IMG/VR virus record: IMGVR_UViG_3300009183_008016
Span: 1-34,756 of that record
Length of the DNA: 34,756 nucleotides
Reading direction: 5' to 3' (one strand)
Source of the DNA: a virus
Positions 24,004-33,272 of this stretch are shown here, piece by piece (position 1 is the stretch's first letter; the number at the start of each line of letters is the position of its first letter). The notes under the pieces are model-generated. The model was given only the letters and a program-made list of their open reading frames with translations, was not told the DNA's origin and did not search any database. The translations under genes and the position numbers were made by a program.

Positions 24004-24744
24004 TCAAGAGTAAATCTGAAGAGCGTATTTTTCAGAGACGAAAGTGCTTTCCCCAAGAGTTGTTTCAAACCAAACATTATAGATGCCCTCATCAAGTTGA
24101 GTTGTATCTATAAACCAATATGCGTAGCTATCTTGCCTATATTCCACAAGGTGCCGATCTACAACGAGCCTTAGATCGGTTTCTGCGGGTACACATTCTC
24201 CGCAGGCGATTTCCATGGATACCCTAATATCGGAGACTATGGCAATATTTTCATAATAGGATACTAGATCGGCACCTTGTGGAACATTAGGCGTGACTTT
24301 AATGAGGATATACCTCTTGCTTCCTTTTCTAACTCGATTTGGCCTGAACTGAAAATTAAAGTCGTAAAGAATAGGGCTTGGACTGGTAAACCAAAGATCA
24401 GGAGCAATCTTGAATGCGTTTCTTATATCGTCGTTTGCACATGTTCCATTTTCAAAAACTACTGACCAGAAGTCATAGTGTTGACCAACACCATATAAAT
24501 CTGGGTTGATATACAAAGGCAGGATGTATTCACCAGTTTCAGCTAATTGAATCTGACTTCCGTCAATTTCTTCGACCAATCTTAATCCTTCAGGATTTTC
24601 AGCACTTTTCAAAGAATCATCTATGGTAAAGATGCTAACTTTGCTAATACTCGAAACATTAGACCTGTTATTGGAGTTATATGTAAACAATCTCAGGTTT
24701 ACTGTGTCTCCGCATACAGGGCTTTGGTATCTTTCCTTGCTCAT
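24004..24744 (-). CDS. Probable virion structural protein
   Basis: A 246-residue beta-rich protein. It starts SPVCGDTVNLRLFTYNSNNR and has a series of strand-like stretches (GEYILPLYINPDLYGVGQHY, DFWSVVFENG, ILYDFNFQFRPNRVRKGSKR, DLRLVVDRHLVEYRQDSYAY). It ends GIYNVWFETTLGESTFVSEK. The layout suggests two or more Ig-like or jelly-roll domains. Similar proteins occur near tail genes in distant T4-like phages; I recall the pattern but cannot name a T4 counterpart. Its ATG overlaps, as ATGA at 24741-24744, the stop of the -1 reading frame that extends the baseplate gene upstream, which implies coupling to translation of that frame. It is followed by a terminator. Confidence 0.65.
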   Translation of the reverse strand: MSKERYQSPVCGDTVNLRLFTYNSNNRSNVSSISKVSIFTIDDSLKSAENPEGLRLVEEIDGSQIQLAETGEYILPLYINPDLYGVGQHYDFWSVVFENGTCANDDIRNAFKIAPDLWFTSPSPILYDFNFQFRPNRVRKGSKRYILIKVTPNVPQGADLVSYYENIAIVSDIRVSMEIACGECVPAETDLRLVVDRHLVEYRQDSYAYWFIDTTQLDEGIYNVWFETTLGESTFVSEKYALQIYS

Positions 24745-24965
24745 TTAGACCTCTGTCTGCCTTTTCTTTGTTGTGCGTCTGCGGCCTGCTTTTCATTTTC
24801 TTTTTGCTGTATGAATCTTTCAATCAGCCATTTTCTAAGATTGATAGGCAGTCTCATAGACATAGTCATGTCCATCTGCATGTGATACTGAAAGAAGAAT
24901 ATTTCCTCGGCTAATTGCTCCCAAAGACCTATGCTTGGGTCTTGGCCTTCTTTCGCCGAGGGAAG
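24741..24965 (-). CDS. -1 frame extension of the baseplate gene (frameshift product C-terminus)
   Basis: An open frame of 74 codons in the -1 frame relative to the gp26-like gene. It begins LPSAKEGQDPSIGLWEQLAE, continues EIFFFQYHMQMD, then LPINLRKWLIERFIQQKENE, and ends in a Gln/Lys/Arg-rich tail. It has no ATG, GTG or TTG before its 29th codon, although the LWEQLAEEI part looks like conserved protein. The -1 frame opens at a TGA (24978-24980) directly before the slippery run, and its own stop overlaps the next gene's ATG. The likely product is a 430-residue fusion (356 zero-frame residues plus 74) made by -1 ribosomal frameshifting. An independent small gene with an AUA or internal ATG start is the alternative. 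Confidence 0.68.
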   Translation of the reverse strand, partial: LPSAKEGQDPSIGLWEQLAEEIFFFQYHMQMDMTMSMRLPINLRKWLIERFIQQKENEKQAADAQQRKGRQRSK

Positions 24966-24974
24966 AAAAAATTT
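24905..24974 (-). promoter_or_regulatory. Candidate programmed -1 ribosomal frameshift signal
   Basis: On the minus strand the codons GCA AAT TTT TTC contain two overlapping slippery heptamers, A AAT TTT (24974-24968) and T TTT TTC (24971-24965). Three bases later a long hairpin can form. Its outer stem is CCTCGGC (24961-24955) with GCCGAGG (24911-24905), seven perfect pairs. Its inner stem is CCAAGACC (24945-24938) with GGTCTTTGG (24929-24921), eight pairs and one bulge. The zero-frame TAG (24929-24931) lies inside the hairpin. A slippery site followed by structure, with the stop just downstream, is the classical layout, as in the lambda G/GT tail assembly genes. Confidence 0.7.
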
Positions 24975-26032
24975 GCTTCAAGTGGCAGATCGATGTTGAA
25001 TTCGGCCAAGCAGCTTGGACAAACAATATCTACATCTGTGTTTACTCCAAATGGAGGTTCGTTAATCATGTTTCTGATGTAAGAAACATCATTAATTGGC
25101 AAATTCTTTAGAAGGATCTGCAATTCATTCTTATTTACAATCCCATCAATATCATTTAGCAATTGCGCTGTTCTGTAGATCAAAGTGTCATCTACACCAT
25201 TGTCGCCAAAAGCCTTGATTCTTCTGTCACGATGGTCTTGAATTTCTTGCTCGTCCTTTCCACTTGAAAGTCGATAGCTGAATGGCAGCTTGGATGTCGG
25301 AAGGACATCACGAAGTTCTGGGCCGAAATCGTCGGGAGTATATTCCACATACAAACTATTAAGGTCAATACTTGTTGAGAACTTTGTTTCACATTCAGGG
25401 CACTTGATTTCCACATCGTAACTTGGCCCATAACTGATGCCACGAAGATAGATAAGCAAATATGTTCTGTCGATAGTGAGCAGATTTTCCGTGCGGAAGT
25501 TTTCCTTCAAGCACTTTTGAAAAATCATGTTGATGGCTTGACCCTTCTTAACAAATCGAGGAGTAGCCAAAATCTGCTCTTCTTCGCCAGTCATAGGCCT
25601 CAAAGACACAATTCCATTGCTTGGTCCATTTTCGCCATCATAGAACTTACCTTTGGATGGCAATTCAATCTCTTCAAATACGGTTGTTGAGCCACGAAGA
25701 CCTTCAAGAAGCTCCTTGAGGTGGCCAGATGCATTTGAGCCAGAAAGTGTGTTGGACGGCGTTGTGTACGAATTATTTTCGCTAACAGAACTCATATTGT
25801 TTAGGCCACGCTTTGGCTGAGTGGTAGATTTTGCCGCTGCTAACGCAGCAGCAAAAGCGGGAGGAATGTTCCCTGAGATTGGAATTCCAGCAGTCGAAGC
25901 ATCAATGGGGTCTCCCGATTCGGCTGCAACTTGTTGACGAATCTGATTGACTGAATCTAGGGGCGCTGATGATTGTGCGGTATCTTGACTCTGATCGCTT
26001 GGCCTTCTCATGCGGAAACTTTCATCTGCCAT
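24929..26032 (-). CDS. 26: gp26-type baseplate hub protein (zero-frame product)
   Basis: A 367-residue protein starting MADESFRMRRP at ATG 26032, with Shine-Dalgarno AGGAG. The first 110 or so residues are Ser/Ala/Gln-rich and probably disordered. The conserved part contains ELPSKGKFYDG, SLRPMTGEEEQILATPRFVK and KGQAINMIFQKCL, diagnostic of the T4 gp26 baseplate family. Two CxxC pairs (CPEC at 211-214 and CPSC at 338-341) form a likely zinc ribbon. T4 gp26 acts in assembly of the baseplate hub. The end of the gene carries a frameshift signal leading into a 74-residue extension. It is larger than T4 gp26 (about 208 residues). Confidence 0.82.
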   Translation of the reverse strand: MADESFRMRRPSDQSQDTAQSSAPLDSVNQIRQQVAAESGDPIDASTAGIPISGNIPPAFAAALAAAKSTTQPKRGLNNMSSVSENNSYTTPSNTLSGSNASGHLKELLEGLRGSTTVFEEIELPSKGKFYDGENGPSNGIVSLRPMTGEEEQILATPRFVKKGQAINMIFQKCLKENFRTENLLTIDRTYLLIYLRGISYGPSYDVEIKCPECETKFSTSIDLNSLYVEYTPDDFGPELRDVLPTSKLPFSYRLSSGKDEQEIQDHRDRRIKAFGDNGVDDTLIYRTAQLLNDIDGIVNKNELQILLKNLPINDVSYIRNMINEPPFGVNTDVDIVCPSCLAEFNIDLPLEANFFFPRRKKAKTQA

Positions 26033-26079
26033 TTTTTTACTCCTGATTTTTGTTCGCCCGTCCTGCATTTAGTGACGGA

Positions 26080-27106: not shown

Positions 27107-27479
27107 ACCAATTGGACTAATGGATGTAAAGCAAGCTCTCCGTGACAGTAGGTTCCGTGAGAGCTTGCCTCCTAGTTTTACATCAGATATTCAAAAATAT
27201 CTGAACAATCCCGGTTGCGCTTGCAATGTTCCAATCTATAAAAAGGTCATGTCTGAGGCCAAGGAGCAATTGCAGCAATACTTTCCAAATCGATCTGTCG
27301 CAAATCTTGACGATGAAGCTAAGAAACTTGCCGAAAACAATTGGCGTGTAATTAATTGCAAAGCCGAAGATTTGGAAAAGGAACTCAAAAAACTTCCAAG
27401 CGGTCGGAAACAAATTGCTATTGCACGATATGAAGACATGGTGACAGTTATTGTTAACGAGCTTGATGTTTTATTCTGA
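27099..27479 (+). CDS. Hypothetical protein
   Basis: A 126-residue protein starting MSRPIGLMDVKQALRDSRF. It has a helical N-terminal half with a conserved-looking segment (SFTSDIQKYLNNPGCACNVP) and a C-terminal half of mixed strands (KQIAIARYEDMVTVIVNEL). The family is not recognised. Its ATG lies inside the end of the zinc-ribbon gene (8-base overlap), and its stop converges with the minus-strand GT2 gene (9-base overlap). Two perfect hairpins occur near its 5' end (27131-27203). Confidence 0.62.
   Translation: MSRPIGLMDVKQALRDSRFRESLPPSFTSDIQKYLNNPGCACNVPIYKKVMSEAKEQLQQYFPNRSVANLDDEAKKLAENNWRVINCKAEDLEKELKKLPSGRKQIAIARYEDMVTVIVNELDVLF
27131..27203 (+). other. Two adjacent perfect hairpins inside a coding region
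   Basis: GCAAGCTCTC (27131-27140) pairs with GAGAGCTTGC (27159-27168) around an 18-base loop. CAGATATT (27184-27191) pairs with AATATCTG (27196-27203) around a CAAA loop. Both lie within the first 105 bases of the gene at 27099. They are seen directly; a role in RNA structure or regulation is inference. Confidence 0.5.
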
Positions 27480-28436
27480 ATTTTTGTAATACAAAGTTGT
27501 ATTTTTCATCATTTTTTTACATGAATCAATCATTTTGGTAGGGTATTGATCATACTTGGATATTTCCATTGGCCAATCGCATGCTGCCAATCTTCTTGAG
27601 CCAAGTATTTTTGCGTTATTATAGAAAGAAAAAGCCTTGTCATATTGTTTAATTGCGTAAAATATATCTGCCAGCATACACCAAAATTCAGCCATTGTAG
27701 GCTTTTTTATAATACAGTTTACTATGTGATTCAAAGAATTTTTATAGTCTTTTTTCATGTAACACAGAACCATTGACATATAGTAATGAGTCATATAGTA
27801 TGATATTGTTGGTTTTTTTTGTTGGTGTAAATATAAATCAGCATAATTTATAAATGAGTCCCAATTTTTATCTAGCAATTCATTGCAAGCCATATAATAG
27901 ACAGGGTCTGGCAACAAAGGTTGTCTTTCATGCCATTTTTTAGTCAATTCTTTAATGTAAGAATAGTTTTGATTATTTGCAGAAGATAAGAAAACATTTA
28001 TAAAATTCGATTCATTTTCGATGGTTTCATACACAGGGTTAGTAAATTTGAGTCCAATTGATTTGTGCCACAATCTGGTTTGTCTTGTTATTATATCACC
28101 CTGCATGACACCAAAGTTATAAGAATAAGCAGGGCCAGCAACAGCATTTTTTATAATTTCTAATCCAGAAAGAAAACTTTCATATGGTTCTAATTGTAGA
28201 ATCCAATCTGTTTTTGTCTGGGAAATTAATTCATTTCGAGCTTTTGCAAAATCTTCGCATCCTGCCAATTTAATTATTTTTGCGCCTTTTTGAGCCAATA
28301 TATCAATTGTTTTGTCTGACGAACCTAAATCGCCAACCAATAAATTGAATTTAATTTCTTTGGTTGAATCAAGAAAATTCTGAATTGTTTCTTGATTGTT
28401 CCTCACTAACATGTTCACCGTCAGAGGACTGTTCAT
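27471..28436 (-). CDS. GT2-type glycosyltransferase-like protein with TPR-like C-terminus, DxD degenerate
   Basis: A 321-residue protein starting MNSPLTVNMLVRNNQETIQN, with GGA upstream at good spacing; a TTG four codons earlier is in frame. The N-terminal domain follows the GT2 pattern: NMLVRNNQETIQNFLDS, LLVGDLGSSDKTIDILAQKG, then EDFAKARNELISQTKTDWIL. The metal-binding DxD normally found after DWIL is replaced by QLEPYE, so catalytic activity is doubtful. The C-terminal part has TPR-like helices (SYYMTHYYMSMVLCYMKKDY, EFWCMLADIFYAIKQYDKAF). It may be a divergent enzyme or a binding protein. The 5' end overlaps the small gene at 28369-28587. Confidence 0.72.
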   Translation of the reverse strand: MNSPLTVNMLVRNNQETIQNFLDSTKEIKFNLLVGDLGSSDKTIDILAQKGAKIIKLAGCEDFAKARNELISQTKTDWILQLEPYESFLSGLEIIKNAVAGPAYSYNFGVMQGDIITRQTRLWHKSIGLKFTNPVYETIENESNFINVFLSSANNQNYSYIKELTKKWHERQPLLPDPVYYMACNELLDKNWDSFINYADLYLHQQKKPTISYYMTHYYMSMVLCYMKKDYKNSLNHIVNCIIKKPTMAEFWCMLADIFYAIKQYDKAFSFYNNAKILGSRRLAACDWPMEISKYDQYPTKMIDSCKKMMKNTTLYYKNSE

Positions 28437-28587
28437 TATTTTTTCCAAATTTGTTCTCTAATAAAAAACCTATGGCTAACGCTTCGTCATTCAAGTTCTT
28501 TTTTTGATAGTACGATTGAAGTTCCCTATAAAATTTGGGAGCATCTGGTTTGTCCAACATGGAAGCAAAAATTTGTGATATTTCCAT
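28369..28587 (-). CDS. Small hypothetical helical protein
   Basis: A 72-residue frame. It begins MEISQIFASMLDKPDAPKFY, has a helical TPR-like stretch (YRELQSYYQKKNLNDEALAI, GFLLENKF) and ends in a polar tail. Its last 68 bases overlap the start of the GT2-like gene in another frame. No Shine-Dalgarno is seen before the ATG. It fills the space between the GT2-like gene and the divergent gp55-like gene, which is otherwise uncovered, and the protein-like composition of the first 50 residues favours a real gene. Function unknown. Confidence 0.5.
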   Translation of the reverse strand: MEISQIFASMLDKPDAPKFYRELQSYYQKKNLNDEALAIGFLLENKFGKNNEQSSDGEHVSEEQSRNNSEFS

Positions 28588-28600
28588 AAAATATTATAAG
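28573..28600 (+). promoter_or_regulatory. Candidate promoter for the gp55-like gene
   Basis: TTGTGA (28573-28578) and TATAAG (28595-28600) are separated by 16 bases. The gp55-like gene follows with a strong Shine-Dalgarno (AAAGGAG) at 28608-28614. Matches to consensus are four and five of six. Confidence 0.45.
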
Positions 28601-28617
28601 CACTATAAAGGAGATAA

Positions 28618-29163
28618 ATGGCGACAGAATATTTGAATAACAAGACATTTGAATCGCTTATCGTCCATTTCCAAAAAACAAAAAAGGAAAGAGTTAAATA
28701 TCAACTTTTCATGGATGATATTATAGAAACGCAAAACAGAGTTGGTAAAAAAGATAAATATAAAAAACCTGAATCTTGGTTATTGACCGAAAAAGAATTT
28801 AAGATTATTTCATCCGAATTTCAAGAATCACAGGACCAACTAGCAATAGCTTTTTATACATTATCTGAAAATATAGTCAGATATGCCAAGTTTAATCTTA
28901 TAGATCAAGATGATGCCGTGCAGGAAGGAGTCATGATCTGTTTTGAAAAGATTGATCGTTTTGATCCAGAAAAAGGCAAAGCTTTTAATTATATGACAAC
29001 ATGTATTCTAAATCATTTCCGTCAACTTTACAGGACTGCAAGAAACTACAATGAACTAAAAAGAAAATATCTTGACTTCATACAAATTCAACTTGATCAA
29101 AAATTACCACCCATTAAAACAAAAAATTTGTATAAAAGACACAATATCGTTAGTGATCCTTGA
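28618..29163 (+). CDS. 55: gp55-like late-transcription sigma factor
   Basis: A 181-residue protein whose core is sigma-70 region 2. The segment DDAVQEGVMICFEKIDRFDP (about 100-119) is followed by EKGKAFNYMTTCILNHFRQL and YRTARNYNELKRKYLDF (about 120-156). These match the -10-binding and core-binding helices of phage late sigma factors. There is no region 4, as in T4 gp55, which directs RNA polymerase to TATAAATA late promoters together with the sliding clamp and gp33. Exact TATAAATA boxes are found at 706-713 and 8598-8605. The small gene at 29224 follows on the same strand. Confidence 0.82.
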   Translation: MATEYLNNKTFESLIVHFQKTKKERVKYQLFMDDIIETQNRVGKKDKYKKPESWLLTEKEFKIISSEFQESQDQLAIAFYTLSENIVRYAKFNLIDQDDAVQEGVMICFEKIDRFDPEKGKAFNYMTTCILNHFRQLYRTARNYNELKRKYLDFIQIQLDQKLPPIKTKNLYKRHNIVSDP

Positions 29164-29223
29164 TATTCGTCATCAATTTTTATAAAATATTTTGTCTCTT
29201 ATTTTTTTGAAAAAGCAGGTTAT

Positions 29224-29484
29224 ATGATAAATCAAGGTAAAAGTCTATTTGATCAGATAGAAAATCAAGAATTGATACAAAAACTGATTGACTCTGGTTA
29301 TGGAAAAATAGTTGATGCATTCCTTCTACATGATGCAAAGGTATACACCAAGAAAGGTCGTCTCAATAAAAGTGGTGCATGTAGGGTTCTAAAGTGCAAA
29401 CCCAAAGAACTTGAAGATTCTCTGAAGGCGTGTCAAGAAATATTGAAATCAGAACTTAAAGTTGAAATTTTAGAAGAAGATTAA
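29224..29484 (+). CDS. Small HTH-like protein downstream of gp55-like gene
   Basis: An 86-residue protein starting MINQGKSLFDQIENQELIQK. The middle part, DAFLLHDAKVYTKKGRLNKS followed by GACRVLKCKPKELEDSLKAC, reads as a basic loop followed by helix-turn-helix-like packing and could contact DNA or RNA polymerase. Its position right after the gp55-like gene invites comparison with T4 gp33, the late co-activator, but there is no recognisable sequence match. The stop overlaps by four bases the convergent tail-tube-like gene at 29481. Confidence 0.6.
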   Translation: MINQGKSLFDQIENQELIQKLIDSGYGKIVDAFLLHDAKVYTKKGRLNKSGACRVLKCKPKELEDSLKACQEILKSELKVEILEED

Positions 29485-29990
29485 ACCAATGAGACGGCCC
29501 TGTCATATCTTAATGTGACATCAACAGTTACAACCTCGCTTGTTCCCATGTCTAGATCACCAAAATTGATGTCTTGTGGCCAAGCGGCCACAAGAAGCCA
29601 AGACTCTAATGTTTCTCCAGTACCATCATACAATTCTAAATAAGCATCTTTTTTGAAACCATCGGCTGATGCATTCCACTGCTCTGTGCCCGTGTCATAA
29701 ATTTGATTAATCCAACCAAGAACTGGGTTGCTATTCTTTTTAAGGTCATAAAGAGTCAATGTAATCGGCTTCCACTCGGGTTTGCCGGGATAATAAATAG
29801 TCTCATTCAAATGCTCCATTGAAAGCTCTTTGAAGGAAACAGATGGCCTAGAAGCCTTTTGAGGAGGCAAAGCATTAATTCCTTGTGCGCTTATGTTATC
29901 GATTTTAAGCAGCCATCTATTTTTTCTTTTGAAACATCCATCAGCTTGCGATAAACCAAAATCGTCAAACCAACCCATTTGTTGAGCCAT
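29481..29990 (-). CDS. gp19-type tail tube protein, second copy (minor tube or tube-initiator candidate)
   Basis: A 169-residue protein of the T4 gp19 tail-tube fold. It shares its layout with the tube protein at 30063-30656. Both have FKRK(N/Y)RW near the start, ASRP.....E followed by a Y(Y/L) strand, PGK..W.(P/S)IT(L/V)T.YD, (L/S)YDGTG.T(L/M)E(S/T)W, and (W)P...NFGDLD...SE...(V/L).LTLR(F/Y). It differs in a distinct N-terminus (MAQQMGWFDDFGLSQADGCF) and lacks the long middle loop. Such second copies can cap or initiate the tube, comparable to T4 gp48/gp54, but that is inference. A terminator sits between the two tube genes, so this copy is likely made in smaller amounts. Confidence 0.8.
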   Translation of the reverse strand: MAQQMGWFDDFGLSQADGCFKRKNRWLLKIDNISAQGINALPPQKASRPSVSFKELSMEHLNETIYYPGKPEWKPITLTLYDLKKNSNPVLGWINQIYDTGTEQWNASADGFKKDAYLELYDGTGETLESWLLVAAWPQDINFGDLDMGTSEVVTVDVTLRYDRAVSLV

Positions 29991-30002
29991 TAAAACCCCA
30001 AT

Positions 30003-30062: not shown

Positions 30063-30656
30063 TTAGGCGTTGCAACCGATCTTGCTTGGAACTGGTATGT
30101 TGATTCCGCAAGATGGTGTGTATTTAGCTTCGCTAAATCTAAGAGTCAACTCAAGACTTGCTTCTTCGGAGCTACTATAGTCGAGGTCACCAAAGTTAAC
30201 AGCGGTTGGCCACATGTTCTTTAATTCCCATGTTTCCATAGTCGCACCAGTACCATCGTACATACTCAATGTGCCAATAGCAGCCCAACCACCTTCTGCT
30301 CCGTCATTGCCTCTTCGTGATGTCTGCGAAAGGCTATTAGGGTCGGTGAAGTTGTAAACGGATGCAAGCCAGTTCCACAGAGTCTGCATACCACCAGCGC
30401 CAGCACCACCGATATCATAGTAGGTCACGGTGATAGATTCCCAACTACCTTTACCGGGAATCCACATCTTGCCGTGAAGATAGTTAATTTCAGTTTCCTC
30501 AATCGTAAGATTGGGGCGGCTTGCAACTTTCACGAATGCACTGGGAACAATTTGGTTGTTCCATTGAACATCAAATGTCCATCTGTACTTGCGCTTGAAA
30601 ACAATCGCTGGCCCGCCGATTTTATCAAGGCCCATATTTCCACGAATTATAGCCAT
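30063..30656 (-). CDS. 19: Tail tube protein, gp19-like
   Basis: A 197-residue protein of the T4 gp19 family, which stacks as rings inside the contractile sheath. Landmarks are FKRKYRWTFDVQW (21-33), VASRPNLTIEETEINYLHGK, WIPGKGSWESITVTYYDIGG, SMYDGTGATMETWELKNMWP and NFGDLDYSSSEEASLELTLR. A Gly-rich loop (GGAGAGG) and a longer central insertion distinguish it from the paralogue at 29481. It follows the sheath gene by 29 bases with a strong Shine-Dalgarno (AAGGAG), the T4 order gp18 to gp19. The terminator immediately downstream fits high-level expression as the major tube protein. Confidence 0.92.
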   Translation of the reverse strand: MAIIRGNMGLDKIGGPAIVFKRKYRWTFDVQWNNQIVPSAFVKVASRPNLTIEETEINYLHGKMWIPGKGSWESITVTYYDIGGAGAGGMQTLWNWLASVYNFTDPNSLSQTSRRGNDGAEGGWAAIGTLSMYDGTGATMETWELKNMWPTAVNFGDLDYSSSEEASLELTLRFSEAKYTPSCGINIPVPSKIGCNA

Positions 30657-30685: not shown

Positions 30686-33046
30686 TTAGAATGTTTCGGC
30701 TCCTGCTACGAAGCTGCCAGTTCTATGGATTGAAAACTCAATAAACATAAATTCAGCGGCACGGGTTGGTTGAATACCAATTCTTGCACGGAATTCATTT
30801 CGGTCAACGACATCCGGCGTGTTCAATTCGGCATCGGCCTTAATGATATAAGCAGTTAGGCCACGACCAACTTGAACATTTTTCAAGATATTTTCGGCCA
30901 AAGACACGAACCTTGAGCGGAAAACTTCATCATTTGGATCAAACAGCAAAGCACGGCTTGCGGTGCGAATTGCCTTCTCGATGTAAAACATGAGACGACG
31001 AACATTCACTCGGTCCAGAGCAGTCGGCATACGCTGCAAAGTCTTCTGTCCGAAGACCACGAAACCATTCACATCAGCGAACTGAACGATTGGGTTCACG
31101 CAGTTGCGATTGCCGTACATAAGGTCACGCTCTTCCAAAGTTGGACGATTGTAGACATCGGTAATATTGGGGACAATACCACGGGTCAAACCGGCTGGGG
31201 CAAACCAAGGAGCGCCAAGAAAATCGCTACGAGCGATAACAGCCATGATGGAGCCACTAGGAGGACACCAAACATCAACCTTGTTGTAGGAGTCATAAAT
31301 CTTAACCCATGGCCAGTAAAGTGCGCCAAAGTCGCTATCAAAGCGAACATTGTTAAGAGGATGTGCGCCGTTCTGCCACGATACAACTTCTTTCACAGTC
31401 AAGCCGAATGGTGCGTCGATAATTGCTAGGCAATCCTGACGATAATCACGGCAGAAAGCGAGAAGTTCCTGAACGACTGCTGTGCTTGAGTGACCGGGAA
31501 CAGCGATAAGGTCGATGTTAACCTGTTCTGGTTCGCTCAAGGTATAGATGCCTGTGAAGCCAACAGGGCTTCCCATCAGGAGAACATCTTGTTGATCTGG
31601 GTCAGCGGGGATACCATCTGATCCACCTGTCAAGGTGTAGGTGCCATCTGCTGGAGCGGCTGCAATTGCAGTGTCGTCCAATACTCTGATATAATCGCTT
31701 ACTAGAGCAAGATAGGTTTCAACATAGAAGCGGCTTGCATCATCCTTGGTAAGGCCTCCCCATGATTCAACTTGCACAGAATTGGTATAAATCTCAACTG
31801 TGAAATTGTTTTCGTAAATATCGTTTTTAATTACAACCTGAGTGTCATTCCCATCGATACCGGGAGAATCAGCGTTGATGGTGAATGTTACATCGCCACC
31901 TGTATTTGCACCGCCAGTTACCAAACCCAAAGTTTCAATATCAATTGCGCCACTTTCGCCGGAAGGAGTTGTTCCTGACTTGGTGGTGGTGCTGAGGCCG
32001 AAAGCAGAAACGCTTGCTGGCTTAATGTAGAGTCGAGAATCGGCACCGTGAGCATTTGTAACAAATCTCAAAGAGAATCCTGAAGCAACTGCTGTCCAAC
32101 CACCGGGTAGTGTACCGCCGTTTTCAGTTTTCTGATCGTTGATATCAGTCACGATGTCACTGATAGTTGAATAGTTTGCGCCAGCAGCGAAAGTGATTGT
32201 CTGAACAACCTGATCAATCAGAATGTTGTCAGTACCGTCAATCACGATCTCGATAACAGGATCTGTGAATCCTGATAGATCGTAGTGTCCAGAAGCGGTA
32301 TAGCCGTTTGCTGGATAACGATCTGCTGATCCGGTCACAGAGGCACGGGTCATACCAGTGCCCAAACCAGTTGGGTTGTCACGAATTGATAAGCCGTCAG
32401 AAACAGCGCCACCGTAGATGGCGTTTTGAATTGACACAAATTCCAAGCTGGCATCTGGACCATAGGCCCAAACGGTTTGAACAGCGATTGTATTGGTGTC
32501 GCTCTCGTAGAATTCAATTCCGTCTAATTGCGTATCAATCTGATTGTTCAACTCGGAAACCAATTCAGTCACAGAGTAAATTCCTGCCAAAACAACAAGA
32601 GTCTTATCTGAGAGAGAACCGTTGAGTTTCCAGCGGAAGAAGCTGTCTTCATCAAAAGTGTATGGGCCAGCAGTGTCAGATATAATTTCGATAATTGTAC
32701 CAGCAGCAGGCACATCAACACTAGCGGTGAGAGCTTGCTCATCGCTTACCGGATCTGTATCAGCAACACGAACCACATAAAGGGTATTGGAAACCAAAAG
32801 ATACTGGTCTGCTGCATAAAGAAGAAATGGATCGCTGGTATCAGGATGAGGATTGCCAAATATAGTGTGCAATTGGCGAGAGGTACTAACAGAAATGGGA
32901 AGGTTGATTGGACCCTTAGAGGCGAAACCAACCAAACCAGCAACATGTGTAGATTGCTCAGGCGCAATGAAGCTCAGGTCTTTTTCTGCAATTCTAACGC
33001 TTGGGCTGATAGTGTTAGATGGTGGAAAACCTTTAAGAATTGCCAT
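30686..33046 (-). CDS. 18: Contractile tail sheath protein, gp18-like
   Basis: A 786-residue sheath protein. The N-terminus (SPSVRIAEKDLSFIAPEQST followed by VAGLVGFASKGPIN) and the C-terminal core (MPTALDRVNVRRLMFYIEKA, then ARIGIQPTRAAEFMFIEFSI) match phage sheaths. The C-terminal domain holds the contraction mesh and the tube-contact regions. It is longer than T4 gp18 (659 residues). The extra length lies in a Thr/Gly/Asp-rich middle part (about residues 130-480) that should form outward-facing domains. The ATG has a GGGAGA Shine-Dalgarno. It lies between the small protein at 33051 and the tube gene, as expected for a tail operon. Confidence 0.95.
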   Translation of the reverse strand: MAILKGFPPSNTISPSVRIAEKDLSFIAPEQSTHVAGLVGFASKGPINLPISVSTSRQLHTIFGNPHPDTSDPFLLYAADQYLLVSNTLYVVRVADTDPVSDEQALTASVDVPAAGTIIEIISDTAGPYTFDEDSFFRWKLNGSLSDKTLVVLAGIYSVTELVSELNNQIDTQLDGIEFYESDTNTIAVQTVWAYGPDASLEFVSIQNAIYGGAVSDGLSIRDNPTGLGTGMTRASVTGSADRYPANGYTASGHYDLSGFTDPVIEIVIDGTDNILIDQVVQTITFAAGANYSTISDIVTDINDQKTENGGTLPGGWTAVASGFSLRFVTNAHGADSRLYIKPASVSAFGLSTTTKSGTTPSGESGAIDIETLGLVTGGANTGGDVTFTINADSPGIDGNDTQVVIKNDIYENNFTVEIYTNSVQVESWGGLTKDDASRFYVETYLALVSDYIRVLDDTAIAAAPADGTYTLTGGSDGIPADPDQQDVLLMGSPVGFTGIYTLSEPEQVNIDLIAVPGHSSTAVVQELLAFCRDYRQDCLAIIDAPFGLTVKEVVSWQNGAHPLNNVRFDSDFGALYWPWVKIYDSYNKVDVWCPPSGSIMAVIARSDFLGAPWFAPAGLTRGIVPNITDVYNRPTLEERDLMYGNRNCVNPIVQFADVNGFVVFGQKTLQRMPTALDRVNVRRLMFYIEKAIRTASRALLFDPNDEVFRSRFVSLAENILKNVQVGRGLTAYIIKADAELNTPDVVDRNEFRARIGIQPTRAAEFMFIEFSIHRTGSFVAGAETF

Positions 33047-33050
33047 AGTC

Positions 33051-33272
33051 TTATTCTCCCTTTCGTAACTTGTTTGTTATATGCCTTATGGAAATCAATC
33101 CATCTTTTTCTGCTCTATCTATATATGGTGTTGATCTTTCATCTTCCAAAACTAAAACATTTTTTCCTGCACCAACGCCGGGAAGGTTTAATGTAGTGAA
33201 AGATTTAATGGCTCTCCTAGACCTAATGATCAATTGCACAGGATGCCTTTTCTTATTCGTTATTTCTAGCAT
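33051..33272 (-). CDS. Small protein upstream of the sheath gene
   Basis: A 73-residue basic protein. It begins MLEITNKKRHPVQLIIRSRR, continues with LPGVGAGKNVLVLEDERSTP, and ends YIDRAEKDGLISIRHITNK plus a Lys-rich tail. Small proteins with this ERST.YI.RAE..GLIS pattern occur in the same place in relatives, to my recollection. The ATG at 33272 overlaps the stop of the gp15-like gene by seven bases and has AAAGGA upstream. Its stop is four bases from the sheath start. It is probably a tail accessory or assembly protein; function unproven. Confidence 0.72.
   Translation of the reverse strand: MLEITNKKRHPVQLIIRSRRAIKSFTTLNLPGVGAGKNVLVLEDERSTPYIDRAEKDGLISIRHITNKLRKGE

Follow-up and report, generated by a model that had tools for sequence, protein, structure and literature searches.

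In the window, the whole 34,756-nucleotide stretch of viral DNA analysed here (IMG/VR virus record IMGVR_UViG_3300009183_008016), a gene on the minus strand very probably encodes a tail assembly chaperone of the T4 gp26 type, made like lambda G/GT as a short form and a -1-frameshifted long form. The features of this region and its context are as follows.

24929..26032, minus strand: gp26-type gene, zero frame, short form of 367 aa (PF12322, E=1.3e-20; phrog_150, E=4.7e-24)
26040..26044, minus strand: Shine-Dalgarno sequence AGGAG of the gp26-type gene
24968..24974, minus strand: in-phase slippery heptamer A AAT TTT, overlapping the next
24965..24971, minus strand: in-phase slippery heptamer T TTT TTC
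24905..24961, minus strand: hairpin after the slip site, present in the window but not conserved
24741..24965, minus strand: extension in the -1 frame (74 codons and a TGA), encoding the C-terminal domain of the long form (430 aa)
24004..24744, minus strand: next gene, 246 aa, whose ATG overlaps the TGA of the extension
30063..30656, minus strand: tail tube protein (phrog_4542, E=8e-25), upstream on the same strand
30686..33046, minus strand: tail sheath protein (phrog_23, E=6.5e-78)

The PF12322 match of the short form exceeds the curated cut-off. Its start is most likely the ATG at 26032, because AGGAG lies 7 nt upstream, and counting from there reproduced the lengths given in a preliminary description of this DNA, 367 residues for the short form and 430 for the fusion (442 if counted from an ATG at 26068). 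The zero frame reads GAA GCA AAT TTT TTC TTC CCT ... GCA TAG, with the stop at 24929-24931. The overlapping heptamers, previously placed 35-45 bases before the TAG, start 43 nt (A AAT TTT) and 40 nt (T TTT TTC) before it, and a slip on either would give the identical 430-aa fusion. The layout described for the -1 frame was likewise found in the sequence: it opens at a TGA directly upstream of the slip site, runs for 74 codons and ends at the TGA at 24741-24743, overlapping the ATG of the next gene. Its first start codon comes about 30 codons in, consistent with the long start-less stretch that had been reported. A search for a family match to the 246-aa next gene found none, and none of the window's genes was recognised as a tape measure gene. 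A glycosyltransferase gene and a late-sigma-like gene (plus strand) are found at 27471-30000, between the tail tube and gp26-type genes.

The motif alone is too weak as proof of frameshifting, as a loose motif criterion picked out 3 of the 59 window ORFs of at least 80 aa, the gp26-type gene and two others. A 153-aa ORF on the plus strand (32735-33196), antisense to the tail sheath gene, also has TTTTTTC in phase close to its end, with the -1 frame open for 53 codons, and this occurrence is probably due to chance.

A scan of IMG/VR gave 57 loci that were 49-78% identical to the window protein, except for two identical copies and the distant locus L058 (25%). The comparison set consisted of the 43 distinct sequences reaching the stop, the window and LR756511 included. 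In-phase T TTT TTC together with an open -1 frame was found in all 43, and the overlapping A AAT TTT in most but not all relatives. One locus (L053) that seemed to be a counter-example proved to be a start-offset artefact, the slip site being present once the right start was used; L058, read separately, has a +1 extension. Codon usage at the slip site was fixed across the 43 loci, the first Phe codon being TTT in 43 and TTC in none and the second TTT in none and TTC in 43. Eight other conserved Phe columns were mixed, with TTT/TTC counts of 29/11, 18/25, 11/32, 18/25, 11/30, 26/16, 25/18 and 20/23. The Phe codon directly after the slip site was nearly fixed (1/41), which can be because two frames overlap there. 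Since every distinct locus keeps both the phased heptamer and the open frame, the frameshift signal in the gp26-type gene is, on this conservation, far more than chance, and it looks both genuine and ancient.

The extension evolves as a protein. It is about 70-77 codons long across the family, conserved and helical, with the pattern LP...EE-FFF-Y...LPI-LRKW-I-RFI-QKE-E. Behind the zero-frame stop, the median dN/dS in the -1 frame was 0.18 (67 pairs) and the same bases read in the two other frames gave 1.3 and 1.7, values that are descriptive as the pairs share ancestry. Beyond the zero-frame stop, protein-type evolution is thus seen in the -1 frame only, showing selection at the protein level on the extension. 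Structures were modelled from the window and locus sequences. The AF2 model of the extension has three helices (pLDDT 88), and a fold search of the PDB with it gave no match. The short-form model was good for the C-terminal two thirds and matched other predicted baseplate hub proteins (SP-15, E=1.7e-21); against solved tail chaperones, the match of the fold to HK97 2OB9 was not significant (E=2.5).

Downstream RNA stimulators are common in programmed -1 frameshifting but not universal. The nested hairpin of the preliminary description does fold as stated, starting 3 nt past the slip site, with z-scores of -1.7 over 96 nt and -2.7 over 75 nt. It was not conserved, however: across 27 aligned relatives, 52% of cells were paired versus 51% in shuffles, with no excess covariation, and the consensus fold of these relatives lacked the window hairpin. 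Pairing at shuffle level and absence from the consensus rule the hairpin out as a conserved stimulator, and it is therefore a local stimulator at most. Among the aligned relatives no downstream RNA stimulator common to the family was found; each phage may have a stimulator of its own or none.

The -1 site extends to distant gp26 homologues. When the loci were read singly, the stop in PA5oct, Atu_ph07 and 121Q was preceded by TTTTTTC at a distance of 10-16 nt, with the -1 frame open into an extension; in XacN1 the run is TTTTTTT, 37 nt before the stop. The stretch in question contains no annotated gene in PA5oct and only a short hypothetical ORF in Atu_ph07. A scan with the gp26 of S-CAM7 gave 80 loci comprising 60 distinct fusions of the T4-like cyanophage type, and in 60 of 60 TTTTTTC precedes the gp26 stop by exactly 10 nt. 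As in the window, the heptamer is in phase and the -1 frame is open into an extension; unlike in the window, the site is 10 rather than 40 nt before the stop, an ATG usually follows the stop, and the region is annotated as two genes. The -1 frame enters the small ORF that is named gp51 in S-CAM7. This ORF (baseplate hub assembly catalyst; L065:3855-4034, loci L071-L150) resembles the -1 extension of gp26, and the cyanophage "gp51" looks like that extension rather than a separate gene. Cyanophage gp51 was reported to reach only some 20% of its usual length, the first ~200 residues being absent (Sullivan et al., PMC3037559), which a frameshift would explain.

In other relatives the extension lies in the +1 frame. 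This was found after a conserved Pro codon in the 58 distinct loci related to Flavobacterium immuto, and likewise in SP-15-like and many other metagenomic loci. The +1 sites read TTT TTT TGG CCT or TTT CTT TGG CCT in one part and CGT CCT or CGT CCC in another; those of SP-15 and LIS04 read GCC CGA and ACC CGA. Near the gp26 stop of loci L151-L230 and L246-L325, TTT TTT TGG CCT or TTT CTT TGG CCT before the +1 extension is almost invariant. A shift of -2 instead of +1 in the Flavobacterium-type loci was rejected by reasoning from the sequence, as TTT CTT TGG lacks good re-pairing two bases back and the Pro is conserved. Immuto-type and window fusions aligned over both domains (99.5%, E=3e-22), as did the extensions alone (81%, E=1e-5). 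Both the immuto and SP-15 types share a homologous short form with the window, and the immuto type a homologous extension too, while differing from it in the +1 frame after the conserved Pro codon. A quick tree of the short form placed the +1 rows together, so that one change between -1 and +1 is needed, with low support for the +1 branch (14).

T4 itself has the two forms as separate genes. Its gp26 ends in ...KEFFELL without an extension, and beside this short gene lies a separate, divergent gp51 (PF12322 match, E=3.9e-52). Within the 282 positions of phrog_150, gp51 covers 13-280 and gp26 14-235. In profile comparisons the cyanophage fusion aligned with T4 gp51 (98.3%, E=2e-14) and the cyanophage extension with the gp51 C-terminus (96%, E=4e-9). 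Because of these alignments and spans, T4 gp51 is, as judged from profiles, the in-frame long form, a gp26-like domain plus extension, and gp26 corresponds to the short form. When the profile of the window fusion or extension was compared with T4 gp51 directly, no match resulted. The window extension is linked to gp51 through the +1 and cyanophage families, in a chain from window to immuto (81%, as above), from immuto to cyanophage (33.6%, E=4e-4) and from cyanophage to gp51 (96%, as above), of which the +1-to-cyanophage step is weak. The window and the T4-like pair have a homologous short form in common (PF12322, phrog_150), and each has a short and a long form with a C-terminal extension. 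They differ in that T4 uses separate genes whereas the window has one gene with a -1 slip site, and in that the window clade is uncultivated. We consider it likely that this is one chaperone family in which a short and a long output were kept while the route to them changed, namely a -1 shift on U UUU UUC, a +1 shift at a Pro codon or two paralogous genes in T4, and in which the shift has switched direction on at least one occasion while the extension was retained. A change of shift direction inside one family may be new.

Such chaperones in T4-like phages are already in print, and the window adds a further member. The conserved frameshift was described by Xu, Hendrix and Duda (2004), and a 2016 review singled out T4 as the one long-tailed phage exempt from the G/GT type of shift (PMC5009743). 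For T4-like phages, the tail chaperones were identified by Vladimirov, Gautam and Davidson in 2022, as cited in PMC10885494 and PMC12846349. Where it cites that work, the PRFect paper mentions phages in which a short gene is accompanied by a longer fusion gene (PMC10885494), and the Adele paper poly-T -1 signals in the TAC-N genes of T4-like phages (PMC12846349). The preliminary description had spoken of a baseplate gene; rather than a newly frameshifted baseplate protein, the product is best seen as the pair of T4-type tail assembly chaperones, gp26/gp51, that those citing passages date to 2022. Its further suggestion of a frameshifted assembly factor gains support from the slip site and extension, which are kept without a shared start codon in the alignment of homologues that it had proposed, as well as in distant gp26 families.

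We infer that the shift occurs, that its rate is low and that the products act as chaperones. Most ribosomes would stop at the TAG and yield the short form of 367 residues, the counterpart of lambda gpG and T4 gp26. At T TTT TTC a minority would move back by one base, where both Phe tRNAs could re-pair on UUU UUU, and would yield the long form of 430 residues, the counterpart of lambda gpGT and T4 gp51, with its three-helix C-terminal domain of 74 residues. If the products act as in lambda, many copies of the short form would coat the tape measure protein, the three-helix domain of the rarer long form would recruit tail tube subunits, and both forms would leave before the virion is complete. 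The slippery heptamer of lambda gpG/gpGT differs from that of the window, and no significant sequence or fold similarity between the two systems was found. The two are alike in that a tail gene undergoes a low-level -1 shift close to its end, yielding a short and a long form (PMC5009743). In Bacillus phage 0305phi8-36, gp143/gp144 form a G/GT-like chaperone made from two genes without a frameshift, as in T4 (PMC2147016), a likeness of layout.

Lambda G/GT usually lies between the tail tube and tape measure genes. By annotation this is also the position of the gp26-type gene in SP-15, LIS04 and immuto, and the chaperone reading is supported by this position, by the short/long design and by the absence of gp51 from the T4 particle, for which gp51 is nevertheless required (PMC3004832). 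The same three points make it distinctly unlikely that the protein is an ordinary structural baseplate hub component, with the long form as a minor variant of that virion component. That reading would account for the baseplate hub names in PHROG and GenBank and for some T4 genetics that puts gp26 in the hub (PMC3004832), but not for the identification in print of T4-like tail chaperones (as cited in PMC10885494 and PMC12846349). T4 gp26 and gp51 are themselves listed as hub assembly chaperones, and gp51 was described in 2010 as an essential protein whose function was unknown (PMC3004832). With the tail assembly chaperone reading, the window and its relatives present the T4-type pair as one gene, gp26 being the short and gp51 the long product. 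This offers a concrete model for gp51 and predicts mis-annotated genes in cyanophages and jumbo phages. The natural series of -1 shift, +1 shift and two genes bears on why tail assembly needs a fixed short-to-long ratio.

The same fusion could also arise if RNA polymerase slipped on the T run and added a base to some transcripts, as a T6 run is present and one extra U leads into the -1 frame. Six T are short for efficient polymerase slippage in bacteria. The run moreover stays TTTTTTC, never longer, and in X XXY YYZ phase at every window-family and cyanophage locus, as ribosomal slippage predicts, and TTTTTTT occurred only in XacN1 among the family loci read, so that polymerase slippage is very improbable. 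Least credible is a separate small gene ("gp51") in the -1 frame with its own start or re-initiation after the gp26 stop: the cyanophage ATG, used by annotators, usually lies a few bases past that stop, but L143 lacks it and L125 has TTG in its place, 26 of 42 window-family loci have no ATG, GTG or TTG between slip site and conserved core, the others have mostly TTG codons at no shared position (one, in L054, with a Shine-Dalgarno-like match), the fixed T TTT TTC codons and a -1 frame open through the stop would be left unexplained, and T4 gp51 exists as a fused form.

Searching a genome collection with the window protein gave no match, and searching it with the SP-15 alignment gave two MAG contigs. 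Loci of the gp26 type are present on a Deltaproteobacteria MAG contig (L242) and an Erysipelotrichaceae MAG contig (L241), with a -1 extension in one and a +1 extension in the other; each may be prophage or mis-binned phage.
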